This document shows, in pieces, positions 18,511-64,000 of a DNA stretch of 64,000 nt. The stretch comes from Thelonectria olida (Eukaryota; Ascomycota; Sordariomycetes; Hypocreales; Nectriaceae). A program made the position numbers and the translations under genes. The stretch is taken from assembly GCA_020736575.1 (NCBI GenBank), contig JAGPYM010000068.1:1-64000 (forward strand), written 5' to 3'. Numbering within the stretch: the first letter of the stretch is position 1; each line of letters starts with the position of its first letter. The notes under the pieces were generated by a model. That model was not told the origin of the DNA. It made no database searches and was given only the letters and a program-made list of their open reading frames with translations.

Positions 18511-18875
18511 ATTATTCAATGCTGCGGCTTCTCGACTGCCATTTCCAGCAATTCTGACAATCATTTCCTGTCGCCCATTTGCCAGTGAAACTCATGCCGC
18601 TTTAAGGGCGCCGCTCCCACACAAGCGCGCCAAACCCTGGTCAAGTCATTCAGAAGTATCGACCGGGTCACCAAGGCTAACCGCCTGACATCGCCCAGAG
18701 CCCCGCCTACCTAAGCGCCGGGCAGCGCTCAGTACGTTTCCATTTGCTGCAGCCCTCCTCCTTGGGTGCCGCTCCAGCAGCGCCTGATGGACATAAAGGC
18801 AGGTAACCCACCACTTGAGCCGAGAGAGAATTCCATCTCCTTAAGTTCTACTCTATCCTCTACGCACAACTTTCA
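18511..18875. other. Presumed Starship left terminus and captain promoter
   Basis: Base composition switches abruptly between about 18,505 and 18,520, from RIP-like AT-rich DNA to balanced sequence starting around CAATGCTGCGGCTTCTCG. The remaining 355 bp up to the captain start contain no coding signal. Starship captains normally lie a few hundred bp inside the 5' end and read inward, so the element's left edge is expected at or near this switch. Exact terminal repeats and the target-site duplication cannot be defined because the right end is outside the window. Confidence 0.5.
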
Positions 18876-21318
18876 ATGACGAATCAGCGGTACCAATTCA
18901 CCATCTCGGATGAGTCTGATGACTCGTCCAGCCAGCATGATGGTAATAGCGTATTTGACAACGGTGACCAGGCCTCGGACGGAACCTCCGACTCCAGCAA
19001 TGTCTCTGACGTCGACGTCGACTCAGATGACCCTTCGGATCTTTATGGCGGGAGCACCTTGCCTCCCGAATTTTTCCTTCAGATGCAAGATGAGTTTGAC
19101 GAGGAGGACGCAGGTGAGACTGCGTACTCCGAAGGCACCACCCGACAACTTGATGGGATTGAACAGCGGTGGAATATGTAAGTTTCAGCACACCTGCTTT
19201 CTGTCAATACAACTAACAAGCTTAGCTATTGCAAGTTCACCAAGCAAGATCCCAAACATTGCATGCATAACATCTCCCTGGCTAAGGTCAACGCTTTCTT
19301 TCACTGGATCTTTACCCGAAAACATGGACTCGACGGGAGGAGTCTACCTGGCATTAAATCTGCCAGCAGCCTCAAACAGTATTGGAAGGATTTTCGCCTA
19401 GTCCACGAGAGAGAGACGAAGAGAAAGATCGATCCTGTATTGAATCGCAAGATGCGCAATGTAAGATCACGTGCTTCCCATCATTCCAGAGTCCTTCTCT
19501 GACTGTCCAGATCCTTCTCAAGCTCATCACCAAGCACAACTTGACGGGCGAACGGCGGGAAAACCGATGCATGACCATCGAGGATCTTGAGAGGCAAGCC
19601 GAGACCACCATCAGCACGACCAAAAAAAGATTCCGGATCGGTGAACATCGGATCCTTGCTCTGCTATTTCTGCTTCTCATCGCGCCAAGCGGCTCCAGGC
19701 CGCGAGCACTCCTCTTCTTACGCTATGGAGACCTGGAGCTCTCCTTGTCGCGAGATCCTGAGGGCGGCCCTCATCGTATCCTCATCCGATTCAAGCTTCA
19801 TTTCACCAAGACATTCCTGGGCGAAAAGGAAACGTGAGCTAGCCACACAGAAGCGGAGATATCCAGTGCTAACTTGGCAATACAGTAACCTCTTAACCCT
19901 CCCTGAAACCATATTTGATTCGAGTCTGCTCCTCAGCCCTCATGCCCTCCTCCTCGGTCTCCTTTTCCATCACAAAGCTTTCCAGGCACCTACGCTCACT
20001 TCCCCCGAGGGTTTGAGTACACTCGATATTCATCCTGGAGAGTATGAGCTGCCATTGCCACTTAAGGAGAGTATGGACGATATCTTCATCTTCCGAAACA
20101 CTGTCAAGACTTGCCTCAATGCCTACGAGTTGTCTGCAAATGAACAGATCACATACAGCATGATATCCGGCTGGACAAAGAAGATCGGCGAGCTTGCTGG
20201 GTTTGTTGTTGCGGTCATCTTGTACACATTGCGGTATAATGCTGGAAACGAGTTTGACCAATGCCGTGCGTATCCAGACAGTCAGCTGTCAGACCAGAAG
20301 AGATCTGCTAACAACCGTTGCAGCGAATATCAGCGATGGACTCCGCAATCTCATGCTCCAGCATGCGGACTCGACTCCCTTCAGGAAGCATTATCTTGGC
20401 CGCGTTATTTCAGTTGATACCATGGCTGTTGTGCGGCACACAAAGCAGCAGAAAGCCCTAATGCGCCAGGCCTGCAGCATCGGGTACTCAGCCAGTAAAC
20501 GGCGACCCACTGAACTCACTCCTGAACAGTCTGCCGCAGTGAACAGTGATCCTCGGATCCAGGAACTTCTTCGACAACGGCAAGATCTCCTTCAGGCAGC
20601 CAAGAAGTCTCCCACGGCCCGGAAGAGGCTGAAAATAATCAACAAGGATCTACAAAGCGAGAGAGCGAAGCTGCGACGAGAACGCAAGCGACAGGTTCGC
20701 AAAAGTTGGTCCCGGGAACAGGCCGTGGCGGATATCGAGCGGCAACTGTCTGGACAGACGTTCGAGGAGCCGCCCGTGCCACCATCAAACGAAGATGCCC
20801 ATCCTGCTCAGAGACGCCTGCTTGAAGCTCTGACGAGCCCCGTAGCTAGCACAATCGAGGGCGAATACGACCGCCGCAATAATGCAATTCTGGCTGTCAT
20901 GGCCTACTGCCCTATTCAAGAAGCACCATTACCTCCCGGCGCTAGCAGAAACATATCGACGGTCAGCAAGGGGGGTGTCTCTCAAAAGCCAAAGACCACA
21001 GGCCACCAAACAGACGACGCCCTGGGTGCTGCAATCACCTCCGTCTTCGTGATGAATAGGACGGAGCGAAGCCGTAGATGCTTCCTCTGTGTTGGAAGAG
21101 CCACCACTCTCGCGCCCTCCGACCCGGCCATCGAGCGTCTTATCAAATCATTTTACTCTCCAGGCGACTTGAGCAAGCATTTCAAACGGCACCACCTGTC
21201 CAACCTCCAAGGAGACGAAGAGTTGCATTGTCACCTATGCAAGCTATCTTTGGATCACAAAATGCATCTACAGAATCATGCTGAGACGGTGCATGGAACT
21301 GTATCAAGAGGAGGGTAG
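18876..21318 (+). CDS. DUF3435 tyrosine recombinase (Starship captain)
   Basis: Predicted 744-aa tyrosine recombinase of the DUF3435 family, the enzyme that cuts and integrates Starship giant transposons; expected to act in the nucleus. My model has five exons: 18876-19177, 19226-19460, 19511-19833, 19886-20265 and 20324-21318. Their sum is an exact multiple of three, and introns are 48-58 nt with CTAAC/CTGAC branch sites. Residues 1-100 are acidic and Ser-rich. The family core follows: RWNIYCKFTKQDP, SLKQYWKDFRLV, CMTIEDL, RFRIGEHRIL. Likely catalytic positions are Arg in APSGSRPRAL (about residue 241), Arg in YTLRYNAGNEFDQ (about 401), His in LQHADS (about 428) and Tyr in RKHYLGRV (about 436). 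A basic coiled-coil-like stretch and two Cys/His finger-like motifs (CFLC...H, CHLC...H) end the protein. No frame break is seen, so it may be functional. It is the first gene after the AT/GC boundary and reads inward, as captains do. Confidence 0.9.
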
Positions 21319-21520
21319 GCCGGAGTGAGTATACCTCCACACAAGCGATAGTAATGGTCGGGAGCACAAACAATAAGGGAACTAGAGGCCACTCCCGGTG
21401 GATGCATTGGATAGAGAATGGGGAATGGTAATTAGACGGACTATTCTTGCGGTGAGGGCGGAAATTGTTCTATTGTACTCTATATAATACTGGATTTGAA
21501 TGTTAGTGAACCCCTAGTGA

Positions 21521-22003
21521 TTAAAAGTTGTCCGCGTGAATACCGCCGCTGTAATCACGCGACTCTGGCCGCCCGGCAGGGTTACCGTTAGACAGTTGAG
21601 GCCGTTTCCCAGCGACAAGCGCTTCCATAACCTCGGTCTCAGAGCCGTATGGCACCTTCCACTCACTGATCTCATAGATAGCACTGCCGAGGGCGAACAT
21701 CGCGCGATTCATAGTGCCGATATCATGACATTGAGATCTATCCGAGCCGGGCGAGCAGTCCTCGCAGCCGTACCAGTCGCTAGGATAGTCGTCCATTCGG
21801 TCCGAGTCGGCGAAGTCGCCTAACCTGATGCGCCACTCATCGAACAGAAAGACGTTGCGAGTCGAGAAAGCAGGGCAGGAGAAAAACAAGCTAGCCGGAC
21901 ATTTTCGCGAAAGAGCCCTATCACCTTCCTGGCGATGTGGGAGGAGCCAGCCAATGAGTGAGAAGCTATGATGGAGGGCATCTACGTCAGAGCTGACCAC
22001 CAC
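21521..22003 (-). pseudogene. Protein-kinase C-lobe remnant
   Basis: An open stretch on the minus strand encodes kinase C-lobe features: NVFLFDEWRIRLGDFADSD (the strand leading to the DFG-like position, here DFA), then MFALGSAIYEIS, then VPYGSETEVMEAL and RPQL. This is the layout of fungal kinase-like proteins from the activation segment into helix F. The N-lobe and catalytic HRD loop are not present in recognisable form. The frame ends in unrelated residues before the CW-containing final helix. I read it as a truncated relic. It sits between the captain and the NLR, pointing back toward the captain's 3' end. Confidence 0.55.
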
Positions 22004-22112
22004 GAAACTGCGTTGATGCCTGGCTCACCCAGCGAGGAGAGCCAACACCAGCGGGGCTCACACGACTCACCCGAGTCGCGCGATTGGCCGGAGCGCCAGA
22101 GCCAAACTCGCA

Positions 22113-22228
22113 TTTTCCCCAGAGTCCCGATACTCAAGGCAAGTGCGATAAATATGCCGGTGGAGGCCGCGCGGGAAATGCTCGGTAATCGATGGACTGG
22201 AAAGGCTCGGATTAGCGGCAAGGGTCGG
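22113..22228 (+). repeat. 116-bp dispersed repeat, copy 1
   Basis: This segment contains GTCCCGATACTCAAGGC and GGTGGAGGCCGCGCGGGAAA. It recurs at 31,722-31,837 in the same orientation with only scattered substitutions and one-base indels. Weaker similarity extends upstream in both (CACCAGCGGGGC versus CACCGGCGGGC). It encodes nothing convincing. It may be a small non-autonomous element or part of a duplicated promoter. Confidence 0.75.
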
Positions 22229-22612
22229 GCCGTTCAGCCGTTGATCACCCGAACGGGCCAAATCAGGTACCCAGTGCACCTAAAGAACAAGGCGGGCGCA
22301 AATCGAGGCAATGCCGGATTGAATAACGGTCTGACTAAGCGCCAAGAACGGATGGGGGCCCAATAGAGCACGGGTCCGTACAGTCATTCTACTGGGCCCC
22401 GAACGGATGCGCCTAACCTTCCAGTTGGGCAACTCACGTCCCAGAAGGAGCATGCATTCAGACGCTGCCCGACAAAAAATCCTGAACTGACACCCGATCC
22501 CACAACATTCTCGTCTAGTTCTCTCCGTCACGAAAAAGGCAAAAACTGCAAGGTACATCCTCTGGTACCAAATCCTGGCGAAGAATTCATCTCGCGTGGA
22601 CTCCCCGGTGAG

Positions 22613-25600
22613 ATGGATGTTGCTAAGTCCCTCAGCCCCACGAGGTAATTAGGCTACCGTACCTCCGCTTCGGCTTTCCATCTAACAAGTCATCTGCGCA
22701 GCGACGACCTCTGGGCCGCCGCCGTCCGCACGCTCGGGGACGAATTGACGTCTCAGATAGATTTCAACCAGGAGACAAAGCAAAATGCGCTAGGTGAGCT
22801 GCTAGCCGCGACCGAGGAAGCGAGGACACACTTGGTCGATAGATCGTTGTCCTTCAAGCGGAAGAATGGCGAGAAGGTTATCGTGCGCGATGTCTTGGCC
22901 AAGGTGGCCAAGTGGGTCTCTCACTTCAAGGAAGTAGGCGACATTGTCGTGCAGTACGATCCAGTCCACGCTGCTCTGCCTTGGGCGGGTGTCCGGTTCC
23001 TGTTGAATGTGAGCCATGGTCTTCATCCATCCGAGGCGGCTACGTTAACATCTAAGCAGATCGCGGTAGGGGATTTGGACACATACAATACGCTGCTCGA
23101 GAGCACCGCCGACATTGCGGAATACATATGCCGAAATGCCCTTGTTGAAAGCCTGCTGAAGGGCTCTTCATCACCCGCCGCAGATGAGCTGAGCCGTGCG
23201 TTGGTCAAGTTGTACGCAGCCATCCTGGGTTATCTCGCCAGGGCAAAATCATACTACAATCAGAATACTCTCAGTGAGTCGGCACACCGCGGTCATAATT
23301 AGATACTGACCCAGTCAGAGCGCGTTCTCAAACATGGAGTTCTTGCCTCGTCCGACTTGGAGTCAACCTTTACTGCCATCGGTAAAGCCCAGAAAGATGT
23401 GGACCGTTGTTCTACCAATTTCAATTTGGAAGGTCCGCCACCACTCATCATCACCATGCACCTTTGCTCACACTACAGAAGCCCAGCTGAAAATGCATGA
23501 CGACCTCAAGCACATGCTGAAGCATTTCGATGCCCCGGTAAACCGCTGGGACGAGGCTCTTAATGTCATCACGGATCAACTCGATGGTAAATCTCCAGTC
23601 CGGAATATCTTGCGATTGCTAACTCGCCCAGCGGAAAAAAGGCGGAAGATATTGCATTGGATATCAGCCGAGCCCTACAGACAACACCACGAACAGACGA
23701 AGAGTGAGGTTTTGGAGGGCACAGGAAAGTGGCTTCTCCAAGACCCAACTTTCCTGCGGTGGAAGAACGAAAGCGCTTCGTCGATTCTATGGCTTCGCGG
23801 CATCCCAGGCTCCGGCAAGAGCAAGCTGACGTACGTAAGGAACAACTTGAGATATTCCGATCTAATTGTAAACTACAGGTCCATCGTTGTTGAGGACGCC
23901 CAGGATGCTTTCCAAAGAAACCAGACCCCAGCTCCGGTGTATTTCTACTGTTCCCGCAACCCAGCTGTGCCTGGACGCTCCGATCCTTCCAGGATAGCGG
24001 CTGCTATTGCGAGACAGCTGTCGACTCCTCAAGCCGGAGGATCACTTCTTGAAGCGGCAGTCGAGGCGTACAAACAACGGGAAGCTGACGCCTTCGCATC
24101 TGGGCCCCTTCGTCTTGTCGAAAGCAAGGACCTGATCCTCAAACTACTTGACCGATACAAGGGCGCGACAATGACGATTGTGATTGACGCCCTAGACGAA
24201 TGCAACGAGGCAACTCGAGCCAGTCTTCTGGATACACTAGACGACCTCCTAAAGGCATCTCCATGCCTGTTAAAGATCTTCGTGTCAAGCCGGAATGACC
24301 AAGACATTGTCTATAAACTGGACAACTACCCCAACTTGGACCTCTCGTCCAACCGCAACTCGGCAGACATCAACCTGTTCGTACAGTCGGAGACAAAACG
24401 CCTTGTCAACAATGGGTCTCTGCTAAGGTTCAGCATGAGAAAGGAAGAATTGCGAAACAAAATCATCCACGAGCTCACATCCAATGCGGATGGCATGTCA
24501 GTCTTTCACCGTATCAGCGTGGTCGCAGAGAACTTACGAAATCAGGTTCCGCTGGGTCAGCCTACAATTACAGGCACTTCAACAACATCGCACTGACGAG
24601 GCGATTCTTGAGAGACTTGGACGGTTACCTAGGACATTGGCAGAGCTATACCAAGAGGTTCTTTCAAAAATCGAAAATTTCGAGGCCGAGGCAGACAGGC
24701 AATTAGCTAGGAATGCTCTTAGCTGGATGCTCTGTAGCCGGGAACAACTCCGATCGGACGACTTCCTAGCCGCTGTGTCCGTCACTAAGGATCGATCCAC
24801 CTCCGCAATCTCGAGAGACCAGCTCTTACACCTGTGCTGCAACCTGGTCAATTTCGATTCCACCCTTGACGCGTTTCGGTTCTCTCACTTATCGGTCAGA
24901 GAGTTCCTCGAAGATCAAGAGATGTATGGGACGGGATCCGTGAACGCAATCGTGGCGGAAGCCTGTCTTTTTCACATCGTAGGAGTAACACCTGAGATTG
25001 AGCCACCGACTCCGCTTCTGGAGTACTCATCCTGCTTCTGGGCAGAGCATGCACAAGCAGCCGCTGAGCAAAGGCAAGCACGACTTGGCGATATCCTACC
25101 CAGGTTTTTATCTGGAGAGCAGGATCGATCTTCCTACTTTTACTGGTGGAATAGGTTGGTTGAGGGATTCGTTTCAGATCAGTCACTCAGGTCACGCAGA
25201 GACTGGAAAACTACGACCAAACTCGAGGCTTCCATGTCCTATACACCTTCGATTATCCTCGTAGTTTGCGCGTTCAACTTGTACGGTGTTCTCAGTCCGG
25301 GACAGTGGAGACAGCTAGCGCGAAGAAGGCCCAAAAACAAACATGGCGCCACGCACCAAGAAGTTGCGGTCCGCTACGGTGGCCCTGAAATTCTTAAATG
25401 GCATTTCAGCAACAAAATTCCTTTTCAAATGACCGGCAAAACCGTCAAGGCTGCAGCTGAGAACGAGGACAACGGCGAGGAGGTGATGGCGCTGCTTCTC
25501 GACAAGCGCGGGGCCGAGATCCAGATCACTGAGGACGTCCTCAAAGCTGCGGCTCAGAACGAGAATTGTGGCGAGAAAGTGATGGCGCTGCTTCTCGACA

Positions 25601-28600
25601 AGCGCGGGGCCGAGATCCAGATCACTGAGGACTTCGTTAAAGCTGCAGCTCAGAACCGGAATCGTGGCGAGGAGGTGATGGCGCTGCTTCTCGACAAGCG
25701 CGGGGCCGAGATCCAGATCACTAAGGACGTTATTAAAGCTGCAGCTAGGAACTGGCATAGTGGCGAGAAGGTGATGGCGCTGCTTCTCGACAAGCGCGGG
25801 GCCGAGATCCAGATCACTGAGGACATCATTATAACAATCGCAAGGCATTTCGACGAAACTACATTTAGCAGCCTTCTCAACAAGCGCGGGGCCGAGATCC
25901 AGATCACTGAGGACGTCGTCAAAGCTGCGGCTCAGAACGAGAAACGTGGCGAGAAGGTGATAGCACTGCTTCTCGACAAGCGCGGGGCCGAGATCCAGAT
26001 CACTGAGGACGTCGTCAAAGCTGCAGCTCAGAACCGGAATCGTGCCGAGGAGGTGATGACGCTACTTCTCGACAAGCGCGGGGCCGAGATCCAGATCACT
26101 AAGGACGTTATTAAAGCTGCAGCTAGGAACTGGCATAGTGGTGAGAAGGTGATGGCGCTGCTTCTCGACAAGTGTGGGGCCAAGATGCAGATCACTGAGG
26201 ACATCATTATAACAATCGCAAGGCATTTCAACGAAACTACATTCAGCAGCCTTCTCAACAACCGCGGGGCCGAGATCCAGATCACTGAGGACGTCGTCAA
26301 GGCTGCGGCTGGGAACGAGAACAACAGCGAGAAGGTGATGGCGCTACTTCTCGACAAGTGTGGGGCCAAGATGCAGATCACTGAGGATGTTATTACAACA
26401 ATCGCAAGGCATTTCAATGAAACTACATTTAGCAGCCTTCTCGACAAGCGCGGGGCCGAGATCCAGATCACTGAGGACGTCGTTAAAGCTGCGGCTGGGA
26501 ACTGGTATCGTGGTGAGAAGGTGATGGCGGTGCTTCTCGACAAGTGTGGGGCCGAGATGCAGATCACTGAGGACATCATTATGACAATCGCAAGGCATAT
26601 CGACGAAACTACATTTAGCAGCCTTCTCGACAAGCGCGGGGCCGAGATCCAGATCACTGAGGACGTCGTCAAAGCTGCAGCTCAGAACCGGAATCGTGGC
26701 GAGAAGGTGATGGCGCTGCTTCTCGACAAGCGCGGGGCCGAGATCCAGATCACTGAGGACGTCGTCAAAGCTGCAGCTCAGAACCGGAATCGTGGCGAGG
26801 AGGTGATGGCACTACTTCTCGATGAGCGCGGGGCCGAGATCCAGATCACTGAGGACATCATCGAAGCTGCGGCTGAGAACGAGGACAACGGCGAGGAGGT
26901 GATGGCGCTGCTTCTCGACAAGCGCGGGGCCGATATCCAGATCACTGAGGGCGTCCTCAAAGCTGCGGCTCAGAACAAGAATCGTGGCGAGAAGGTGATG
27001 GCGCTGCTTCTCGACAAGCGCGGGGCCGAGATCCAGATCACTGAGGACGTCGTCAAAGCTGCAGCTCAGAACCGGAATCGTGGCGAGGAGGTGATGGCGC
27101 TGCTTCTCGACAAGCGCGGAGCCGAGATCCAGATCACTGAGGACATCGTCAAAGCTGCGGCTCAGAACGTGTATCGTCGCAAGGAGATGATGGCGCTGCT
27201 TCTCGACAAGTGTGGGGCAGAGATGCAGATCACTGAGGACGTTATTACAACAATCGCAAGGCATTTCGATGAAACTACATTTAGCAGCCTTCTCGACAAG
27301 CGCGGGGCTGACATCCAGATCACTGAGGCCGTCGTTACAACAATCGCAAGGCATATCGACGAAACTACATTTAGCAGCCTTCTCGACAAGCGCGGGGCCG
27401 AGATCCATATCACTGAGGACGTCATTAAAGCTGCGGCTCAGAACGTGTATCATCGCAAGGAGATAATGGCGCTGCTTCTCGACAAGTGTGGGGCCAAGAT
27501 CCAGATCACTGAGGACATCATTACAACAATCGCAAGGCATATCGACGAAACTACATTTAGCAGCCTTCTCGACAAGCGCGGGGCCGAGATCCAGATTACT
27601 GAGGACGTCGTCAAAGCTGCGGCTCAGAATGGGAATCGTGGCAAGGAGGTGATGGCGCTGCTTCTCAACAAGCGCGGGGCCGAGATCCAGATCACTGAAG
27701 ACGTCGTCAAAGCTGCGGCTCAGAACGAGAATCATGGCGAGAAGGTGATGGCGCTGCTTCTCAATAAGCGCGGGGCCGAGATCCAGATCACTGAAGACGT
27801 CATCAAAGCTGCAGCTGGGAACCGGGATAGTGGCGAGGAGGTGATGGCACTACTTCTCAACAAGCGCGGGGCCGAGATCCAGATCACTGAGGACGTCGTC
27901 AAAGCTGCGGCTGGGAACTGGTATCGTGGCAAGGAGATGATGGCGCTGCTTCTCGACAAGCGCGGGGCCGAGATCCAGATCACTGAGGACATCGTCAAAG
28001 CTGCGGCTGGGAACGGGTATCGTGTCGGGTATCGTGGCGAGGACGTGATGGCGCTGCTTCTCGACAAGCGCGGGGCCGAGATCCAGATCACTGAGGACGT
28101 CGTCAAGGCTGCGGCTCAGAACGAGAACAACGGCGAGAAGGTGATGGCGCTGCTTCTCGATAAGCGTAGGCCGGAGATCCAGGTCACTGAGGACGTCGTC
28201 AAAGCTGCGGCTCAGACCGGGAATCGTGGAGAGAAGGTGATGGCGCTGCTTCTCGACGAGTGCGGGGCCAAGATGCAGATCACTGAGGATGTCATTACAA
28301 TAATCGCAAGGCATTTCGACGAAACTACATTTAGCAGCCTTCTCGATAAGCGCGGGGCCGAGATCCAGATCACTGAGGGCGTTGTCAAAGCTGCGGCTCA
28401 GAATGGGAATCGTGGCAAGGAGGTGATGGCGCTGCTTCTCAACAAGCGCGGGGCCGAGATCCAGATCACTGAAGACGTCGTCAAGGCTGCGGCTCAGAAC
28501 GAGAATCGTGGCGAGAAGGTGATGGCGCTGCTTCTCGATAAGCGCGGGGCCGAGATCCAGATCACTGAGGGCGTTGTCAAAGCTGCGGCTCAGAACGGGA

Positions 28601-47854: not shown

Positions 47855-48024
47855 GCTTACACGTTTGAATTTGTGTAAGCAGTTCACGACATGAATCAGG
47901 CAGTTCAGGATATGAAGATAGGTTTATAATAGTTTCAAATACGAGTTTTCGTCGCCTCTCTATATGTCCCAACTTCTAACTCTTAATGGATACTGCTTTT
48001 AAGAAACGACATTGCATTTGCAGA

Positions 48025-50948: not shown

Positions 50949-51299
50949 TTCGTCTGCTTCAAAATGTCAAAGAGAAAGCAGGACCGACTCAGGTGGGAGG
51001 GCATAATGCAGACGAAGCGTAATATCTATATATATTTGCTGAGCAGCCTGTCTCAATGCAGAATCCAGATTTCAGATTCCTGCTCTAGTATGTTCTCCGA
51101 AGTCCGTTTTCTGCATCGCGTTCCAGGAACAGTCCCTGGAACCACATTCTGGATACTGACCCACGCGTCTACGCGCCCAGATCTCGTTACCGAGTTGCTA
51201 ATAAAATCAGACTAGAGCGTTCGCTAACTTCCTACTGCATGAGTTTTGCGATGGAACAGCGAATCGTATAATCAAAAACCTGGTATATTGCTACTATTC
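50949..51299. other. Intergenic, nothing recognised
   Basis: About 350 bp upstream of the 265-aa gene and downstream of the stop of the next. It presumably holds a promoter and a 3' end. No repeat or conserved motif is seen. Confidence 0.5.
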
Positions 51300-52870: not shown

Positions 52871-53428
52871 AATGAATATACAATGTTGCCGAAGAAAAAG
52901 CTACCTTGAATAAAAGTAGATGAGCGTGTTACTTAAAGAAAATGTCTCGACATAAGTCGCGAAGAAAGAAACGGCCTGCTCGGGGTTGGACGTGTCCGTG
53001 GGCATTCTTGTTATACCTGACCAAGATTGCTTCACCAAGTCATGTTGGCTACCAACAGCGCATTTCCAATTTTAGCTATTAGCAACCACTACAGTGTGAT
53101 AAGGGCGGAACACATGATTTTCACCCCATGCATCAGGGGGGGTGGTAAGGTTCATTAGTGGCACACACCAAGGACAACATCCTTGCTGACATTTGTGGGT
53201 TCGCAAAGCGCGAAAAAGTTCAATACAGTTTGTGAATCACAATAAAGTTTTTATTAACACGGTGAGTTCTTTCTCGTGGTTGTTGTTCAACCATGCAAGC
53301 TCACAGTTGGTTCGATGGTCCTCTCTTAACAGTATTTAGGTAATAAATTCCTCCAAATAAGCGTGTACTTGTATCAGTACGACTTTAGTCTACCTAAGGA
53401 GTGACTACGTTTGACTTGCCATCCCAGG
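52871..53428. other. Intergenic, nothing recognised
   Basis: About 560 bp holding the promoter of the PWWP/Tudor-like gene on its left and the 3' flank of the small MADS-like gene on its right. No repeat or coding signal is seen. Confidence 0.5.
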
Positions 53429-53854
53429 TCACGGACTGGGTGTCCGTTCCTCCTCCTCCTCCTCCTCCAGTGCTCCGTTTTCCATGGGACATTGTGATTG
53501 CGTATTTTGAGGCCGATATCGAATCGGAACTGGGTAGTTCCTCTCCTGCTATCATATGAGTGGGTTGCCGCGACGTACGAGCAAGCTGGGACTCACAAGG
53601 CTCGCCTCTGTAGGTGGCCACGATTCAGAAGATTCCGAGGAGTAGACGTGGTAGCGGCTGTTGACCTCGATTACCATGTAAACTCGTGCGCCAAGCTTGC
53701 TCAGTTGATCGCTCTTGCCGATCAAGGTCTTGCACCTCTTGTTCGTTAAGGTGCGTTTCAATTGGGCAGGTGTAAGTTTGCGCGGAATAGGCTTGGTGAT
53801 TTTGAATGCAGGCTCGGAAGAAAGGACTGCTTCTGGGCGCGTCATGGCTGTCAT
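53429..53854 (-). CDS. Small MADS/SRF-like protein
   Basis: Predicted 125-aa protein from exons 53854-53597 and 53548-53429 (49-nt phase-0 intron, donor GTGAGT, acceptor GATAG). The core KRTLTNKRCKTLIGKSDQLS followed by KLGARVYMVIE resembles the helix and first strand of a MADS (SRF-TF) domain as found in many small fungal proteins. The spliced C-terminus is short and acidic (six Glu in a row, encoded by the GGAGGAGGA run). A second, diverged member of the same type lies at 57.5-58.1 kb. DNA binding is plausible but unproven. An alternative reading without the intron would give a Gly-rich tail. Confidence 0.5.
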
Positions 53855-54045
53855 GGCTGTTATTATGTCTAGGCAGGTACTGTGATCTCGAGCTTTGGGG
53901 TGATGTTGTCTGGAATCGGGATGGCGACAGGAGCCACTAATATACCACCCCCACCATCAGGAAATCCGCAACAGCAAACCGAATCCGTCCGCCCAGCGTC
54001 TCTACAGGACGTTTTCTGTTTTCTGCTTTCTGTGTGCCCCTGGCT

Positions 54046-54439
54046 TTACCAGTATCCGAGGCCACAGGCTCCTTTTCCAGTTTGGGTGAACGATTCCATC
54101 CTCGGCGCTTACCAGTAAATTTAGGATATGCAGTTTCCTGCTTTCTGCCCGAAGACTTGTGTCCCATCGCGCGTACCAGTAAACGCCCTGTATTATGGAC
54201 GCAGGTTACCAGTACCGGGCCACCGCATTACTGGTAAACCCCTTTCAGAAAACCGTACTGGTAAGCTGCCACCTGCCGACTAGTAAATAATAGGCAGGCT
54301 AACGAAAGATTACCAGTAATTCTCAGCTTTCACAGAGGAACTTTACCAGTCACTCGAACCTTCAACTAAAACCGATATCTGATTTCTTTCTCCAGGAACA
54401 ATGCAAAAAGAATGCAGGCACCTGGAGATTTACCAGTAA
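54046..54439. repeat. Cluster of TTACCAGTAA motifs in both orientations
   Basis: TTACCAGTA(A) or close variants start at 54,046, 54,109, 54,173, 54,206, 54,310, 54,343 and 54,430. The reverse form TTACTGGTAA starts at 54,228 and 54,255. Spacing is irregular (27-87 bp) and the sequence between motifs is not repeated, so this is a set of short sites, not a tandem array. Confidence 0.8.
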
Positions 54440-54482
54440 TTCTTCTCTTAGAATAATCTAATAAAGTCTTTTTGGCGTCGAT

Positions 54483-54790
54483 TGTATCCCTTCTCTATAG
54501 TAAATTATACGCGCGAGCTTCCTCTCTGCTCTCAAGATGGTTCATTGCTTCAATTCTATTACAGGGGAATGATGAGAGATTGTTCTACCCGGATTAGCAC
54601 TATCCATCAGATGTTGAAAAGAATTTCATAGGTTCTGAGGACGTATTGAAAACAAAAGAATCACAACTCAACAGATACGTATTAGTATCCCTTCTATATA
54701 GCAAATCATACGCTCGAGCAAGATGTTTCATGGCTTTAATCCTCTTATGGGGCAATGATGAGAGATTGTTCCACCGGGATTAGCACTGTC
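54483..54790 (+). repeat. Duplicated ~115-bp segment
   Basis: Copies at 54,483-54,605 and 54,684-54,790, same orientation. Shared blocks include GTATCCCTTCT(C/A)TATAG, AATGATGAGAGATTGTTC and GGATTAGCACT. The copies differ by substitutions and one deletion of about 14 bp. Confidence 0.75.
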
Positions 54791-54978
54791 AGCGGCCCGA
54801 AGCCTCCCGCCCACTGTACCTAGGGATGTTCTAAATCAGTACATTGGTTCAGAAGAGCACGCGAAAAGCAGCTATTGGACGTATTAAAAACACAGCACAT
54901 TCGGATTGACTACCAGAGTCTATCTACTCGCAAAACTGAAAACAAAACATGACCCGAACAATGAATGATTCGATAGCC

Positions 54979-56496
54979 TTAGTGAGCCCAAGCCTTGGCC
55001 TTGATCGGCTTCGGCCCCCCCCCTCTGATGGACTGCCCGGCCATAGTCATATGGCCATGAAGTACCTCCATTGTCGACGACATTCCCCACTCCTTATGAG
55101 AGGCAAGGAGTGCCTTTGAAAACACCATAAAGTCCCGATCGGTTTTGTAGTGAGGAATTCCATAAGCAGCGTAGCGATAGCCCTTGCCCCACGGCATCAC
55201 CAGCACGAGGTTCAGCTCAAACTGCCCCGGGCAGCAGTCGTCGAGTTGTTCCTTGTTAGCCGCAACCGAGAGGGTTTTATTCGAACCATGGTTGACGTAA
55301 TCGTTAAAGGCGTCCTGGTACCTTGTCTCCTTGCCGTCGATGTAGTGACCCCTGGATAAGGTTTTGAACTCTACGTTGAGACTGGGGAGAGCAAGAGCCA
55401 GCCAGTACTTGCGGAGAGGATGTCGACCCAGGATCTCGGCCACAACCGTTTTTCCGGTTTCTGGATCGTCGATCGTGATGTTATTGGCACTGAGAGCTCC
55501 CTTACCATGAAATCTGGCCCTCATTTTTCGACGTTTTTCAGAATTGTATTGTCCTTGTACTTCCGTGACTCCTGGAACATCTGTTTGGACTTTCCCAGAT
55601 TCATCCAGCGCTCTTAACACACCGTCTAGCTTCGAGTTTGCAAGATCCTTATCATGATCGGATCCCCATGGGATTTCATCCCATACTGGGGGATCGCTGA
55701 CAAAGTCTTGTATCAGATCCATTGCATCATCCGGGTGTGGGTTATGTTGAAAACAGAAGTCGGCATAGCAGAAAAGCTGGAAGACACTCCTATCCGGGTG
55801 CTTAGCCTTAAATTTCGGGCCGAGGGCGAGAAACTCTCCTATTGTCTCATTAGGCGTCGCACCAATATAAGTAAAATATTGAGCGCCTGTCGCTTCGACC
55901 AAGTTCTGCTCCGCATCCGTTAATGGTATTGGTTCTGGTTCTAGTTCCCCGTCATCTGAATCCGCGTCGAGATCGACCTGCTGGTGGACAGATTCTGGAT
56001 CGATAGGTGCAGGAGGGGCAGCTGTAGATGCAGGAGGGGCAGCTGTAGATGCAGGAGGGGCACCTGTAGATGCAGGAGGGGCAGCTGTAGATGCAGGAGG
56101 GGCAGCTGTAGATGCTGGAGGGGCAGCTGTGGATGCAGGAGGGGCAGCTGTAGATGCTGGAGGGGCAGCTGTGGATGCAGGAGGGGCAGCTGTAGATGCA
56201 GGAGGGGCAGCTGTAGATGCAGGAGGGGCAGCTGTAGATGCAGGAGGGGCAGCTGTGGATGCAGGAGGGGCAGCTGTAGATGCTGGAGGCGCTGCTGTAG
56301 ATGCAGGAGGGGCGACAGAACCATCAGATCGAACAACGTCGCTTCCCGCTTCTTGCGTCTTCTTCGCCTTCTTCGCCTTCTTCGCCTTCTTCGCTTTCAA
56401 CTCGGCAAGTCGCTTCAAGAGCTCTCCCTCCTCGTCTTCCGGCAAAGGAGTTGTCTCCCGCGACCCCGCAGGGGTGATGGGGAGTATAGCGGACAT
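54979..56496 (-). CDS. Unrecognised protein with PPASTAA heptad array
   Basis: Single-exon 505-aa protein. The ATG at 56,496 is the first in frame. Residues 1-60 contain a Lys/Ala repeat (LKAKKAKKAKKAKK), helical and basic. About 15 heptads PPASTAA follow (about residues 62-165), encoded by a 21-bp tandem repeat. An acidic linker (DLDADSDDGELEPEPIPL) leads to a C-terminal region of about 300 residues that looks globular and contains WDEIPWGSDHDKDLANSKLD, ARFHGKGALSANNITIDDP, ILGRHPLRKYWLALALPSL and VLVMPWGKGYRYAAYGIPHY. I know no family for the globular part. Confidence 0.7.
   Translation of the reverse strand: MSAILPITPAGSRETTPLPEDEEGELLKRLAELKAKKAKKAKKAKKTQEAGSDVVRSDGSVAPPASTAAPPASTAAPPASTAAPPASTAAPPASTAAPPASTAAPPASTAAPPASTAAPPASTAAPPASTAAPPASTAAPPASTGAPPASTAAPPASTAAPPAPIDPESVHQQVDLDADSDDGELEPEPIPLTDAEQNLVEATGAQYFTYIGATPNETIGEFLALGPKFKAKHPDRSVFQLFCYADFCFQHNPHPDDAMDLIQDFVSDPPVWDEIPWGSDHDKDLANSKLDGVLRALDESGKVQTDVPGVTEVQGQYNSEKRRKMRARFHGKGALSANNITIDDPETGKTVVAEILGRHPLRKYWLALALPSLNVEFKTLSRGHYIDGKETRYQDAFNDYVNHGSNKTLSVAANKEQLDDCCPGQFELNLVLVMPWGKGYRYAAYGIPHYKTDRDFMVFSKALLASHKEWGMSSTMEVLHGHMTMAGQSIRGGGPKPIKAKAWAH
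55995..56310 (-). repeat. 21-bp coding minisatellite
   Basis: About 15 copies of a 21-bp unit (plus strand GCAGGAGGGGCAGCTGTAGA plus T) encoding PPASTAA on the minus strand. Variants alternate TAGATGCAGG, TAGATGCTGG and TGGATGCAGG in a pattern that suggests block duplication. The unit length keeps the frame in all phases, which explains long artefactual frames on the plus strand. Confidence 0.9.
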
Positions 56497-56768
56497 ATTG
56501 AACAAAAATTAGAGTGCAAGATCAATAAGAGATGCTGAACCGATGGAAACTTGGTGAGTTGCTAGATGCTGATGCGGTGTAGATACGACCATCTAACTGC
56601 TTTTATAATGTACTCAAGCTAAGCCCGTACCTGCAAGAACAGGATTCTGCAAACAGGAACCGGTCTGAGCGCGTAGTTAGGAAGCCCTCGACCGAAACTG
56701 ATTCCGGCTTTACACGGTTGCCAACAACATACACCTTACAGGTCCTTGCAGGGCATGAGGATGCTGGT

Positions 56769-57284
56769 ATGAATAGCCCCCTCCATATGTTTGGCCATTT
56801 ATCAGAAATTCCAAACTTTCAAATCATGCAGTACACAATGTCTCAACAGCAACAGCTGGAAGAATTTCAGCGCCCTTGGAGTCAGAAGCCCCTCATCCGA
56901 CCACCAACCCCTCACCCATTCGTCGAGCCTCATCCCGCCGGAGACGAGCCCGACTTGACCATGAGAGACTTCCCCACAACAAACACAAAAAAAGACCCCT
57001 CTTTGAAGCGCGTCATGCCTCGCAGCATCCAGTCGCGAATGCAATTAGCGCGCCTTCTTCGCCAGAATCAGAGAACTACGACTGTATTTCGGCCAAAGGT
57101 CGCTCGGTCTTTGCACCCAAGCCCACTGGGAAAGGAGATGGGCGAACTGGAGCTGGGACAACAAGACCTCTCGGAGGTCATGCAGGGTCTTACACTGGAA
57201 AATGATGAGAGGAATATGAGGAACGATGGCCTTTTGCGATGCAGACTCTGTGGACATCGATTGGCTAGTGGTTGGACGAATTGA
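56769..57284 (+). CDS. Unrecognised small protein
   Basis: Plus-strand frame of 171 codons from the ATG at 56,769 (later in-frame ATGs at 56,787, 56,826 and 56,838 are also possible). It is Gln- and Pro-rich at the N-terminus (MSQQQQLEEFQRPWS), basic in the middle (RSIQSRMQLARLLRQNQRTT), and ends with a single CRLC motif and HRLASGW. One CxxC pair with a nearby His hints at half a zinc finger. No family recognised. It lies tail-to-tail with the MADS-like gene. Confidence 0.4.
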   Translation: MNSPLHMFGHLSEIPNFQIMQYTMSQQQQLEEFQRPWSQKPLIRPPTPHPFVEPHPAGDEPDLTMRDFPTTNTKKDPSLKRVMPRSIQSRMQLARLLRQNQRTTTVFRPKVARSLHPSPLGKEMGELELGQQDLSEVMQGLTLENDERNMRNDGLLRCRLCGHRLASGWTN

Positions 57285-57510
57285 AATTGTCATGTTATTT
57301 TCAGGCTCTTCTGCCATACAAATATTATTAGAAATGATTTCTCTCTTGAAATTCGCATTAACCCCAAACCCTAGAGCGAGAAAAAGATGGGAGGGAAAAA
57401 AAGGAAAATAGGGAAAAAAGTCGCGCTAAAAGAAAATTAATCAAATGCAACCCTCACACTATTAATACATAATATTTATCGTACATATGAATCCATCCAC
57501 TTGCTTAATG

Positions 57511-58065
57511 TTAATAGTCGAACCATGAAGTGCTTCTTTCCCTCTTCCGCGGTGATTCTTCCAAACCATCGGGTGATGCCGGTCGGGGTCGCTTCCGAGA
57601 AGCTGGCGCGGTTCTGGGGCCATTTTGGTAGACTTGGGGTGCAGGGTTGACGGGTGCAAGGTCACGTTCCAATTCGGGCCCGATGCGAACGATCTCCAAG
57701 TCGTCCCAGTTAGGCTTGAGAGGAGAAGTCTTGCCTGTTGACGGCCAAGCCAAGCGAAGAGAGTCTAAATCGGGTATTGAGGGCGAAGAGCGTGTTTGGG
57801 TTGCCGTCCCTTGCTTGTTTGCTGGTTGCGGAGTCATGGCCGTCTGTGAAGTTGCTCGAGGTTGAGGTCCCGGTTCATTCCAAGATGGCTCGAGATCAGG
57901 GTGTGTCTTGTAACAGAATGCCTTTCCATCATCAACCTTCTCAATGTAGAGAGCCACCCTCACGCCGAGCTTCGTCAGGTCCATACACTTCCTCATGAGT
58001 CCCTCGGTCCGAACCCTGAGGCTGCGTGCTGGGTCCTGAGGCACTTTCCAAGGCTTGGTACCCAT
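57511..58065 (-). CDS. MADS/SRF-like protein with disordered tail
   Basis: Single-exon 184-aa protein; ATG at 58,065 preferred over the longer open frame. Residues 14-60 (RVRTEGLMRKCMDLTKLGVR followed by VALYIEKVDDGKAFCYKTH) match the layout seen in the 53.4-53.9 kb protein and resemble a diverged MADS (SRF-TF) domain. The tail is Pro/Ser-rich and ends in basic patches (SRKRPRPASPDG, SPRKRERS), a likely nuclear signal. Its start is 346 bp from the ferric-reductase start on the opposite strand, so the two share a divergent promoter. Confidence 0.5.
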   Translation of the reverse strand: MGTKPWKVPQDPARSLRVRTEGLMRKCMDLTKLGVRVALYIEKVDDGKAFCYKTHPDLEPSWNEPGPQPRATSQTAMTPQPANKQGTATQTRSSPSIPDLDSLRLAWPSTGKTSPLKPNWDDLEIVRIGPELERDLAPVNPAPQVYQNGPRTAPASRKRPRPASPDGLEESPRKRERSTSWFDY

Positions 58066-58411
58066 GATTAAAGACAGTTCTAGAAATATGCGTGAAGAAA
58101 GGCTGAGAAGGAAATGATGGTCCCGATTGAAAAGTATTTCCAAAGACAACAATGACGGATTATGCTACACGATTCAGTGAAACGAAATGAGGGGGGAACC
58201 CAGAACGCTTTAAAGTCCGGAGACAGAAAGCAGGATTGCGCAGGATGCTATTCTTGTCCTGCCTGCCGCTCGTTTCCATTTCTCGTCCCCGCCATCCATC
58301 AAGAGCCGCGCGCCTAAGCTCGAAACTCGACTCCACTGTTAAAGGTACATAATTGCTTTGATGCGCTGCTATCCTTCAGGGGCGCAGGGGCTGGACCAGA
58401 ACCCTGCCGCC

Positions 58412-60285
58412 ATGGATTTTGCCCGAATTTACCTGGTCGTCCTCTGCGGCGCGTTGGCACTTCCACTGCTCCTGATCATCGCTCGTTTTCTCTACTCTAC
58501 CCTTGAGCCACAACTTCGCGTCAGGGCTGCGCACTTTAGATATTCAAAGCTAGCACTTGGCAGCATTAGTTTCGGAGTCTCGGGCTTACAGTTCTCAATA
58601 CTTGTACTTTATCTTGCTGCTAATGGCTTTCTCCTTGGCGTCGGCAGCGGCGCCAAAGCAGAGTTGGAGAAGAGAGCAGCAGCGATTGCCTCGGCGAACC
58701 TCATGCTGGTCTTTCTAGGCGGTAGAACTAATCCTCTCGCGAACTTCCTCCAGATCCCCCTCGCCTCTTATTATTTTGGTCACAGCTGGATTGCCATTGT
58801 TGCAACCTGTGAAGCCCTCCTGCACTCGGGCTTGGCTTTATCCCGACATCAGAAGTTCGATTCTCTGACCAAGTCCGGATATTTGGTGAGTGTTGGCATG
58901 CCCCCTTTAGTTTTTGTTCAATCTAATGCACTCAATTGGCTGCGAGTGGCTTATTCGCCATTGTCTTCTCTGCCCTCTGGTTTCGCAGGCTATTTGGGCG
59001 ATTCTTCGGTCTATTCCACCTGCTCTGCTCTATGGCGGCGCTCGGCGGTCTTGTCTGGCACATCTGCCTGCAGCACTCGGCAGCAGCCAGGATCCCAGTC
59101 TTCGTGTCGTGCGGACTGCTGGGGTCCACTCATCTCTACCGGCTGGTCCGCATGTTCATCTGCGGTCACGCCGAAGGCTTCCTAGAAAGACCCTGGGATG
59201 ACGGCAATGTCATGCGACTTCAGGTGAATACCAACAAGCCCGTCACTGTCTTTCCAGGCTGCTACTTCTACGTCTTTTTCCCTGGCCCCCTTCCCTTTTA
59301 CGACTTCTTTCACGGCTACGCCATGATGCCCGTGTGGGGCAAGCCAGACCAGTACGTGACCGGCAAGACGTCCGATCTTACTTTTTTGATGTCCCGCACT
59401 CGAGGACACCATTGTAGATCTCTTGGTATTGTTTCCCCAGGCCAACGCCTTCGCCTCGACGGCCCTTACGGGAAGGACCTTCAGCTCCACACGTTTGAGA
59501 CTGTTGTCCTCACTGCGAAAGGGCTGGGTATCTCGGGAATCTTACCTTTCGCGCTGCACCTAGCTGCTCGGAAGCGACATGATAATCGCGTTCGTGACAA
59601 GTCTGCCAGGTTACGTGACTCAAGCGAGCCTGTCTTCGGTGATCTGAGCCGGAATGTGGACTTAATATGGTGGTTAGAACACGATGATCAAGATAAATGG
59701 GTTGGCGATCAACTTCGATCCCTCCAAGAGGTTGATGCGAAAGTATGTTGCTCTTTCCCTGTCTTCTCCTCTATGCTGACACCTCGCAAGTTCTTGGTGG
59801 TTTGGTGTGTTTACCCCGTGAAAAGGAAGCCGGAACGCAAACTCCCCTTCGAAAAGAACGACTATTGGAAAAGGCGATACAGTTTTGGTTTTGAAGAGTT
59901 CTCGAGGGAACTTCGGCAAGAGGCACGATATCCCGGGCGAACTGTGGTTGTTGGTGAGTGGCGAAATGGTCAATGGTGTCGCCCACGTCTTTAACAGGTT
60001 ATAGCTTCCGGCGAACAGAAATTCGTGAATACGATGCGGGGCATAGTTGTGCAGAATACGACGTCGCATCGAATCATCGAATTTGCTAATCTGGAGTATT
60101 TTACGCCGCCAGGGGGGTTTAAATCTACATTCCGCAGGTCTCTGGACTTGCAGGAGACTCTGGTCAACTCGGGCGAATCCTCATTAGACAAGTCCCAGGC
60201 CACGCCAGTCAACCCGGACGGTATTGAGATGATGGAAATGGATATTGCTGAGCAACGCACCCAGAAGATTAGAGAGATGGTTTAG
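58412..60285 (+). CDS. Ferric-reductase-like transmembrane protein (FRE class)
   Basis: Membrane flavocytochrome-like protein of the ferric reductase/NADPH oxidase superfamily, expected to move electrons from NAD(P)H to extracellular metal. Likely start is the ATG in GCCGCCATGG at 58,412. Exons: 58412 to about 58,872-58,885, about 58,947-59,742, 59,791-59,953 and 60,005-60,285. Five or six helices form the N-terminal half. Candidate haem His lie in ALLHSGLALSRH and in SMAALGGLVWHICLQH. The cytosolic half has LRLDGPYGKDLQLHTFE and VLTAKGLGISGILPF (NAD(P)H-binding type). The usual FAD-binding HPF motif is not obvious (RTRGHHCRSLG occupies that place). The first intron is a problem: its good donor (GTGAGT at 58,886) leads out of frame at the only nearby acceptor, and an in-frame join needs a weak GTCCGG donor at 58,873. 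A lesion is possible. FRE genes are common Starship cargo. Confidence 0.75.
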
Positions 60286-60541
60286 GTGTAATAAATATAA
60301 AGTTTTGGCTTCCTTTTTTAATCTACTGGCTAGCTCTCTGCCCGCCTTATCTCACTACTCTGTCATCGCGCAGGCGGTCGATCAGTCCGAACCACCTGAA
60401 CCCGCTAGTTATTCCGCACGCCAGCTTCACTCGACTCACCTCCCTGGACGATCTGATTCAATGATGCTCGCCCCGAGGCGGAGGATTTTATGTAATTAGT
60501 AATATATTATCAGGCCCAAGTTATAAAATAGAGTTCTCATT
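60286..60541. other. Convergent intergenic gap
   Basis: 256 bp between the ends of the ferric-reductase-like gene (plus) and the patatin-like gene (minus). No gene is seen; it probably holds both 3' ends. Confidence 0.5.
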
Positions 60542-63074
60542 CTAAACCCAAGCGTCGCTACTGCCAGATGGCAAAAATCTGCCCAGCTCCTCGCTCAGCT
60601 TCTCAATCTCTGCAGTTAGACTGTTGCCCGTGGTCCCAGTCTCGCACAACAATCGATGATCCCTCCTTCCAAACGCACAGTCTAGCCCTTGATCTCTAAT
60701 GAGCTTTTCCACTTTGTAAGGACAGTTGCTGATGCTCTGCTCCCCCATTAAGCTATCACGCAATCTCACATCTAATACCGTATCCATCGCGGAGACCTGC
60801 ACCTCTAAGACTCTAGAAAATGATTCCCCTCTGCGGCAGCGGGCCAAGATCGCTGGCGTCACTAGGCTATCCCCAGTCCACTGAGCTTCTGCCCCACGAT
60901 AGTGGATGCGGGCGCTTCTAAGGTGCAAGCCTGTGATCAAGTTCGTCATCTCTGGACCCGGAGTCAAACGGCACAAGAGTCGAATACAGGCTGCTTCTGG
61001 CGAAGAATAGAGCATTGGAGCAGACAAAAGCTCGATGTAGAATAGGCAAGAAAGCATTCGCTCGGCACTGAGTTGAAAGGACAAGGCATCGTAAGGTCCG
61101 CCCATGTAGCGGGCGGTAAAGTCGGGTCCATGCTCACGCCGAGTGGCATGGATTCTAGTTGGACAGTCAGTTCCTGGCCAGAATGAGGTCCAGCATATGT
61201 GTTTTCTCACTCTGTACGCCTCCCAGCCATGTGATGGCCTTCGAATATCAGGATGGCGTTCATGCCCATACTGCTCGCCGTTCTTTCCATCTTCCAGGTT
61301 AGTCCCTTGCCGAAAGACACGAGAGATCGTTGCTTGTCAACCTTGGGATCGCCGAGGTTCTTCAGGTGGTATTGGCAATCGGACAAGCTCCATCCTTCCA
61401 AGAAGATGGTTTGAATAAAGAAAAGCCCTATTGAATTGGGTCAGAAAGTAAACTGTTTAGAGAAACGTCAGCTTACCAATTCCAGATCCAATAACGAGGT
61501 CGAAGTGCTTCCGTAGAGAAAGTGGTAAACCAATTGAGGATTGCAAGTCCTTTAAGAACTTAATCATCTCCCACTTATATTGAGACGTCCCACCCAACTC
61601 GAGAACCCTATTTCCACTAGTTGGTGGTTGTAGGAGGAGTAGTCCGTCATGTCGCTGCCCACACAGAGGGCATTGCGTGACTTGCTCCTTTGGTGAGTCG
61701 GCGGTTGCTTGCTGGGTGCCACATATAATCACGCAGGCGTCACAAAGTCGGTGCCTGCATTCTAACTTTGTCGAAGCTAGCCTCATTAGACACACAAAAC
61801 AAAACTCCTCCTCAGTGCAATCCCGCCAAGCAGCCTGGAACTCGCGGAGCAAAGAAAGATGTGCACATGCCGAGGAACCATCTTGCCGTTCTAGAGCGAA
61901 CCGAATGAATGTTTCGCGGACTTGATCTAATAGTCCATCTTCGTTCAGGCTCCTCTCTACCCGACTCAGCGCAGCCCTGTAGTTCTTGTCAAATGTTAGG
62001 TGAGGGGGAAAGACTTGATTGTTGTCCAGGTTAGCGGAAAGTTAGCGGGGTTGCGGGGCTCTCGGCGGGCTTACAGTGCATGCCTGGAGGATGCGCATCA
62101 AGGTCAAGCGCCGAGGCCATGACGGGGATGTGATCGATATTGGCATCCTTCATCGACAAGATGAAATGCACAAGTGTCTCTGTCAGTTGCTGTGATGTTG
62201 GATTCTGGAGGCGAACTGCGTGATGAAAGTCAAGTTGATGGCCGGTGGACTTGGAGAATCGGAGCACCGCGGTCTGAAGAAGGTGCTTGAGGTGCTGGCT
62301 GCTAAACCCATACCCCGCGTTCTCGCGAGCAGCAAACGAAGCTTCTGTCTGAGACCAAAACTCAGAGGCGGCGTTCCAGGTCGGAATCAGTCGCACGCTC
62401 TCGAAGGCATTTTCACCTTGCAGGTATATAGGCGAATTCACTCCAGCCTTAACGACATCCTCGCCTCCCGAGACTGTACACATCAATCTTGTCCGCAAAC
62501 GACTCTCGAACGACACGATCTCGCTTCGATTGCGCCAATGGAATATGACCAGGATTCTCGGCGGTGCGGAGATGGCCCTCAACCTTGCTCGGCGACTCCA
62601 GGACGCCAATATCTCGATGACAGGCCCAACGCCGCCCAAGTCATCGAGAAAGAGCAATACGGTTGAAGCAAATGGGAATAAAAGCTGCCAATACATGTCG
62701 AGAGCGAACTGCGCGACCTTATGCGGCGGGCTCTGAGGCGTTAAAGAGCACTGGAGAGGGTGCAGCGCCATTTCCCCGCCCGAGTATTGGTCATGTATTT
62801 TGTCGAGCCGGGTCTGGTTATGGAGCTCGCAATCCAATATTAGCGTTGCAAGCTGCACTGGTCGGAAAAGAATGCCAGCGCCTTTGGGGAATCTCTCATC
62901 TAGCTCAATGCTTCGATAAAAATGTCGCTTTTCCACGCCCCCAATTGAAAGGACCATTCTGGGTTGAAAGGCTTGGTGGTCGAAGAGCTCATAAGCCCGA
63001 CGGTGTTCGGTGATGACTGGAGACAACTCTTTTTGCCTGCCAAATCGTAGTTCAATCCAGTTGTGAGACGCCAT
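60542..63074 (-). CDS. Patatin-like protein with RING-type insert, catalytic serine lost
   Basis: Predicted 788-aa fungal patatin-like protein (the PLP class of Starship cargo) from exons 63074-62075, 62013-61477, 61427-61211 and 61154-60542; the total is a multiple of three. Residues 1-330 are the family-specific N-terminus (WIELRFGRQKELSPV, RHFYRSIELDERF, DQYSGGEMALHPL, LLFLDDLGGV). Residues about 405-460 hold a C3HC4 RING-type pattern (CFVC...CRHRLCDAC...CPLC). The patatin core follows, but the glycine-rich DGGGVRG loop is replaced by ELGGTSQYK, and the GxSxG nucleophile motif reads GSGIG across an intron, putting Gly where Ser should be. The downstream part (GWSLSDC, then VEKLIRDQGLDCAFGRRDH) follows the family. 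Frame and splice sites are intact, so this looks like a pseudoenzyme and not a decayed gene. It diverges from the DUF3723 gene with 237 bp between starts. Confidence 0.85.
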
Positions 63075-63311
63075 GTTTCATGGTAGGTTGACCTGTCTGA
63101 GCTGATATCGGCATCTGCGCCGATATTTGAGTGTCGCACCTGCACCGACGCTTTCTGGTTACTGTTTCCTGTTTTCGTGGAGGACCGCACAATCCGGCTG
63201 CTAGCGCCGTTTCTCCATCCCGTGTCCTAATTTGGAGCAGCAAGTAAAACACATCAATAAGGACGAGGTCGGCGTGCCATCACATCATGAGAAGTCCAGC
63301 AACTCAACATC
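63075..63311. promoter_or_regulatory. Shared divergent promoter of patatin-like and DUF3723 genes
   Basis: Only 237 bp separate the two start codons on opposite strands, so the promoters must overlap. No clear TATA box is seen in either direction. Confidence 0.4.
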
Positions 63312-64000
63312 ATGGAACTTGTCGGAATCGTCCGTTGCCCAGTCCGCTCGCTCATTCCTTATGGAGAGGGCAGACAGGTAAACCTCGATACGGTCAAACG
63401 GCTGGCAAAGTGCTTCGAGAAAACAAAATGCAGGCCTGAGGAAGAAGACAACTTTATTCGCGGAGTCATCACCTACGACGACCTCAGGCAGATTGTCTCG
63501 ACACTGGGGGTCTCTGAAAACGCCCTCAAGCGCACCACTCTTCAAAGGAGTTTTCCACTTCTATCCGGGCACAACATCGCCTGTCTTGAAGGACGACACA
63601 GAATCCGGGCTGCAATCGAACACAAACCGCTTTCGTGGTGGGTGGTGAAGTTATTGTGCGTCCAGGGGAGCTGGATAGAATTTCCTCTAAAGATAGCTCT
63701 TGCATCCATCGACCCCCAGATTATTCAAGATCGAATTGAGGCTACCTCACGCGAGACGCCCTACTCGGATGCCGAGGTCTATCGGTTAGTCCGCAAGTAC
63801 ATGAAGAACCACGACAAGGCGAGAGTGGAAGGGTGTCTGAGCCGGCTATCGCCCCCTAAGCAGGTCAGTTTGAAAGGCCTATTGAAGCGACCGCAGCTTG
63901 TTTGCGATCTCGACGCCCTGATCAAGTTCCCGGGGGTGATAGGAGGGCTCCAACTCGGCAACATCCACAAGTACCTCGGCCTTCACGTTGATGAGAATTT
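63312..64000 (+). CDS. DUF3723 protein, N-terminal part (runs off window)
   Basis: Open frame from the ATG at 63,312 to the window edge (229 codons, no stop). Family features: CLEGRHRIRAAIEHKPLSWW (a ParB-like GxHRxxAA segment), ETPYSDAEVYRLVRKYM, CLSRLSPPKQVSLKGLL, and FPGVIGGLQLGNIHKYLGLH followed by VDEN. DUF3723 proteins are among the gene families most often found in Starships; their biochemical role is not established. Family members are several hundred residues longer, so most of the gene lies outside the window. No frame break is seen in the visible part. It shares a promoter region with the patatin-like gene. Confidence 0.85.
   Translation, partial: MELVGIVRCPVRSLIPYGEGRQVNLDTVKRLAKCFEKTKCRPEEEDNFIRGVITYDDLRQIVSTLGVSENALKRTTLQRSFPLLSGHNIACLEGRHRIRAAIEHKPLSWWVVKLLCVQGSWIEFPLKIALASIDPQIIQDRIEATSRETPYSDAEVYRLVRKYMKNHDKARVEGCLSRLSPPKQVSLKGLLKRPQLVCDLDALIKFPGVIGGLQLGNIHKYLGLHVDEN

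Follow-up and report, generated by a model that had tools for sequence, protein, structure and literature searches.

A 94-kb element of Thelonectria olida, very probably a complete Starship transposon, with a HET-S/NWD2-type gene pair beside a SPOK homologue

Contig JAGPYM010000068.1 (C131; 115,943 bp) belongs to the 52.5-Mb, 165-contig assembly GCA_020736575.1 of the fungus Thelonectria olida, and its first 64,000 bases are the stretch analysed here, referred to as the window. A unit of 94,027 bp begins in the window at position 18,509 and ends outside it, on the same contig, at 112,535. It opens with a DUF3435 tyrosine recombinase gene (the captain) and carries near its right end a SPOK homologue and a HET-S/NWD2-type gene pair (Table 1). 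The original prediction had proposed a single Starship transposon with its left end at a sharp composition boundary near 18.5 kb and its right end out of view. The boundary was recovered with its exact edge at 18,509, and a direct repeat at both ends together with four paralogous empty sites bears out a single Starship; the right end is indeed out of view in the window, and extension past 64 kb finds it.

Table 1. Features of the element and its borders; positions above 64,000 lie past the window, in C131 numbering
Feature	Position	Strand	Basis
Left direct repeat ATATACT	18502..18508	not assigned	flank alignment
Starship, in-window part	18509..64000	+	GC and RIP step at both ends; empty sites
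Captain, DUF3435 tyrosine recombinase, five exons, 744 aa	18876..21318	+	profile match, exon model, relative's fold
NLR (NACHT_N, NPHP3_N, DUF7104, ankyrin repeats)	22649..30081	+	Pfam; predicted extent
Ankyrin-repeat ORF	32310..34292	-	Pfam
SIR2-like ORF	42572..43852	-	Pfam; NCBIfam
Ferric reductase-like ORFs, borderline	58343..59994	+	Pfam
RING-like gene next to DUF3723	60542..63077	-	RING-like stretch; patatin not confirmed
DUF3723 ORF	63291..64000 in window, on to 66,494	+	Pfam
JmjC ORF	75,356-78,154	-	Pfam
SPOK homologue, two halves in different frames	100,766-103,266	-	sequence homology
HET-S-like gene	103,931-104,794	-	Pfam HeLo and HET-s prion domain
NWD2-like NLR	105,029-108,490	+	NACHT, WD repeats
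Right direct repeat ATATACT	112,536-112,542		
RIP, repeat-induced point mutation; NLR, NOD-like receptor; ORF, open reading frame.

Both ends of the element are marked by a change in base composition. The GC content is 0.085 at 17-18 kb and 0.507 at 19-20 kb, and it drops again near 112.5 kb. The flanks bear the signature of RIP, with TpA/ApT at 1.28-1.45 and (CpA+TpG)/(ApC+GpT) at 0.22-0.24, and the element bears none (0.67 and 1.27, respectively); no 2-kb window within it has a (CpA+TpG)/(ApC+GpT) value below 0.8 or a GC content below 0.4. The left flank is part of a diverged AT-rich repeat. Matches to this flank stop at 18,508 (contigs C114 and C37) and 18,506 (C62) in a genome search, and at 18,508 (C114, C37 and C145) in a local BLAST, in which the gapped C62 match stops at 18,483. 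Matches to the right flank, 108-136 bp long, start at 112,535 or 112,536 at the same places of C114, C62 and C37; C145 was assigned across the junction through alignment only. In an empty-site test, both flanks were fused with a single copy of the 7-bp direct repeat, ATATACT, and aligned to other copies of the host repeat in the genome. In each of four copies, which lack the 94 kb, the alignment of the fused flanks continues across the junction, with left and right identities of 132/150 and 116/143 for C114, 116 and 111 for C62, 119 and 100 for C37, and 123 and 103 for C145. The direct repeat is present once in each copy, the C62 target differing from ATATACT by one base. The limits of the element were placed at 18,509 and 112,535 because flank homology breaks at these points and because the fused flanks hold ATATACT once. 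The four empty sites are paralogous copies of the host repeat within one genome, not alleles; if the target is a repeat, such sites suffice to fix both ends of a Starship from a single genome, without a second strain. A separate high-copy repeat accounts for many matches from about 112,655 onward, and the right flank has at least 401 matches in total, itself included. No terminal inverted repeat exceeding random pairs was detected at 30, 50, 100 or 200 bp of the ends. Such repeats are common in Starships and not universal.

The captain lies where it was predicted, as the first gene after the boundary; it is oriented inward and starts 367 bp from the edge, and its frame runs without a stop over five exons. 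The structure model of a 98.7% identical relative (predicted local distance difference test, pLDDT, 71.3) was compared by Foldseek, and all 23 matches at E <= 0.001 were to Cre or Cre-derived structures, at modest superposition; this relative models as a tyrosine recombinase. The captain most likely placed the unit into an old, RIP-mutated AT-rich repeat and left the 7-bp direct repeat behind. The host repeat was presumably already mutated at the time of insertion, because the AT-rich state halts at the junction on either side. Other copies of the element were sought with its left 3.1 kb and right 2.5 kb as queries. The left query found two relatives of the captain (72-74%) and a third (65%), along with short matches to the flank, and the right query found three short places besides itself. 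The genome holds 35 DUF3435 matches at exon level, distributed over 13 contigs, so that it contains further captains or relics.

The right end carries two genes that together resemble the HET-S/NWD2 system of Podospora anserina. The HET-S-like protein combines a HeLo domain (194.9 bits) with a HET-s prion domain (103.1 bits) and aligns with the solved HET-s and HET-S proteins, scoring 301.9 bits to solved HET-s. Among the best 120 of 256 relatives, a protein from Dactylonectria estremocensis is 95% identical to it. It has a histidine at position 33, where the solved sequences differ; this position sets the het-s/het-S type according to the available text of PMC3321046. The NWD2-like gene is divergently oriented, with the two start codons 234 bp apart, and encodes a NACHT domain followed by ten near-identical 42-residue WD repeats. 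Its residues 2-21 align along the whole r0 motif, at 4.8 bits to a joint profile built from 232 r1/r2 segments of 121 proteins. In shuffle tests, scores as high were reached in 2 of 2000 cases with the joint profile, 69 of 2000 with r2 only, 86 of 2000 with r1 only and 132 of 2000 in pairwise alignment. The portions available of PMC3321046 and PMC4344463 place the motif of P. anserina NWD2 at residues 3-23 and describe divergent NWD2 and HET-S genes. Judged by sequence, there is moderate support for an r0-like amyloid motif at the N-terminus of the NWD2-like protein, to which its position adds, and the pair, both frames of which are open, is apparently intact. By analogy with the published Podospora work, the two proteins may act as receptor and pore-forming executor: once activated, the NWD2-like NLR would serve as the template on which the HET-S-like protein takes up its amyloid fold, and the HeLo domain of the latter would then become a membrane pore. 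Elsewhere in the genome, C13:874111-874791 and C13:882290-883010 match parts that adjoin in the NWD2-like query and are separated by about 7.5 kb, which would fit an interrupted relative.

The neighbouring SPOK homologue consists of two ORFs on the reverse strand, 101,383-103,266 and 100,769-101,644, which match, each at 89%, consecutive segments of a single T. olida paralogue of 752 residues. The best 120 of 166 relatives include Podospora SPOK4, 51% identical across 75% of the query, and a protein bearing the name meiotic driver SPOK1 (63%). PF27653 is precomputed for SPOK relatives; a Pfam scan of four SPOK-type proteins returned no family. The killer and resistance parts are not in one open frame in this assembly. 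By coordinate arithmetic the gap between the halves could not hold an intron, and the break may come from an assembly error. The gene is called a SPOK homologue rather than a working SPOK because its halves occupy different frames. As far as the available text of PMC12693581 goes, expression of a SPOK that lacks the resistance domain is lethal, and killing apparently works through DNA degradation; SPOKs on Starships are already known, 33 of 408 Fusarium SPOKs lying in known Starships.

The remaining cargo was annotated by a Pfam search that covered 30 of 41 ORFs of at least 150 aa in the window and 20 ORFs beyond 63 kb; genes with small exons may be missed, because only this set was searched. 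The original prediction had listed all four hallmark accessory classes of Starships, namely NLR, ferric reductase (FRE), patatin-like phospholipase (PLP) and DUF3723, which proved overstated. The NLR and DUF3723 genes are clear: the former lies directly after the captain, with NACHT_N and NPHP3_N followed by 36 DUF7104 stretches and ankyrin repeats, and the DUF3723 match spans 63,429-64,646, crossing the window end. The FRE gene is borderline, with PF01794 just above its cut-off (28.9 bits against 28) and the NAD-binding PF08030 below it (17.9 against 22.2). The PLP gene was not confirmed: none of the 17 genomic matches to patatin PF01734 lies on C131, a strict motif scan gave a single match in a frame holding a stop, and three candidate ORFs compared with two patatin loci of the T. 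olida genome gave nothing significant. For the best candidate, the ORFs at 60,545-63,077 on the reverse strand, a patatin identity was likewise not confirmed; they hold a RING-like stretch and match no patatin profile. This RING-like gene is a possible source of the earlier call. These accessory classes are common in Starships and not required.

The RING-like stretch (61,460-62,041, reverse strand) has nine other matches in the genome, three of them within 10 kb of a DUF3723 hit; because six of the nine share a contig with such a hit, the gene looks like a DUF3723 companion, whatever its fold. Long in-frame tandem repeats occur in the cargo ORFs at 54,979-56,508, 70,984-72,060, 75,356-78,154 and 101,380-103,266. 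Ankyrin-repeat ORFs and a SIR2-like ORF also belong to the window cargo. An NCBIfam search of six proteins gave SIR2-type matches for one, low-complexity matches for another and one weak irrelevant row, and left three proteins without a match.

Taken as a whole, 18,509-112,535 is very probably one complete Starship of T. olida, by whose captain, we infer, the unit was moved. It is highly improbable that the locus is simply a gene-rich stretch of ordinary DNA, flanked on both sides by AT-rich isochores, in which a DUF3435 gene happens to lie close to the border. Such a coincidence would be eased by the abundance of AT-rich repeats, as seen in the matches to the right flank, and by the spread of DUF3435 matches over many contigs; against it, four copies of the host repeat are continuous across the junction, lack the 94 kb and hold the direct repeat once, and these contradict an isochore edge without insertion. 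A refinement of the Starship reading, rather than a replacement, is that the transposon was later invaded by blocks, chiefly by the HET-S/NWD2 block that separates SPOK from the gene at the right end; this refinement is given somewhat less than an even chance. The right-end cargo region has at least 53 diverged matches in the genome, itself included (40 of 58 candidates scored). One of them, a RIP-damaged relic with AT-rich stretches on C65 (L043, 585-4457), is collinear with 100,774-103,703, on the SPOK side, and with 109,353-109,909 and lacks the HET-S/NWD2 block. In the element, the pair is enclosed by an imperfect direct repeat of 50 nt with 84% identity, at 103,545-103,594 and 108,629-108,678. 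The repeat and the break in C65 do not coincide in position, however, and a loss in C65 is equally possible as a gain in the T. olida element. Block exchange between elements is likely from these alignments, in a direction that the data do not fix.

A recent horizontal transfer of the Starship into Thelonectria from another genus is suggested, and slightly favoured, by the captain, which shares 692 of 701 aligned residues (98.7%) with a protein of Neonectria punicea, the next relative by score, from Fusarium oxysporum, reaching 73.8%. Against it, N. punicea is not named among the best 120 of 256 HET-S relatives or the best 120 of 166 SPOK relatives, some rows of which are nameless.

The cargo links two questions, the scattering across species of allorecognition genes and that of spore killers. 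The right end could be a selfish self-recognition cassette, in which a SPOK-family drive gene and a complete HET-S/NWD2 cell-death pair share one mobile unit, which would thereby unite spore killing with non-self recognition; this is considered unlikely at present. If true, the spread of such cassettes via Starships would help to account for the patchy occurrence of the two gene families. Hypothetically, such cargo might give the element an advantage through the death of cells or spores that do not carry it. The proximity of Spok2 to het-v in Podospora is discussed, in the part available of PMC9262711, as a case of drive aiding the persistence of an allorecognition gene, and this idea becomes testable where both kinds of gene neighbour each other on a transposon, as in T. 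olida.

The element falls within the published Starship size range of about 15-700 kb (PMC12289983) and agrees with Sanctuary (PMC12506042) and the Starships of Aspergillus fumigatus (PMC12153272) in having a DUF3435 captain as the first gene, short direct repeats at the empty site, and NLR, DUF3723 and probably FRE genes. The distance from edge to captain is also close to that in Sanctuary, about 350 bp (PMC12506042). It differs from them (PMC12506042; PMC12153272) in that its empty sites are paralogous repeat copies rather than another strain, that no terminal inverted repeat was detected and that a PLP gene was not confirmed. Starships are known, as are SPOKs carried by them and HET-S/NWD2 pairs, and the combination of a SPOK homologue with such a pair as cargo is unusual; a limited literature search turned up no Starship described as carrying a HET-S/NWD2 pair, which does not establish absence from print. 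An NLR of a different type, sesA-NACHT-WD40, is reported on a Gaeumannomyces Starship in the available text of PMC12134995. Enterprise and other SPOK-carrying Starships, as described in the accessible part of PMC12693581, likewise carry a SPOK-family gene, whereas in T. olida its frame is broken and a HET-S/NWD2-type pair adjoins it. With P. anserina HET-S/NWD2, so far as PMC3321046 and PMC4344463 were available, the pair shares adjacent divergent genes, a HeLo and a prion domain, His33, NACHT with 42-residue WD repeats and, with moderate support, an r0-like N-terminus. The HET-S-like protein is 58% identical to HET-S of P. bellae-mahoneyi. In contrast to the P. anserina genes, whose reading frames lie 0.6 kb apart in the same sources, those of T. 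olida are more closely spaced at their start codons and belong to a mobile element, with a SPOK homologue about 0.7 kb away.
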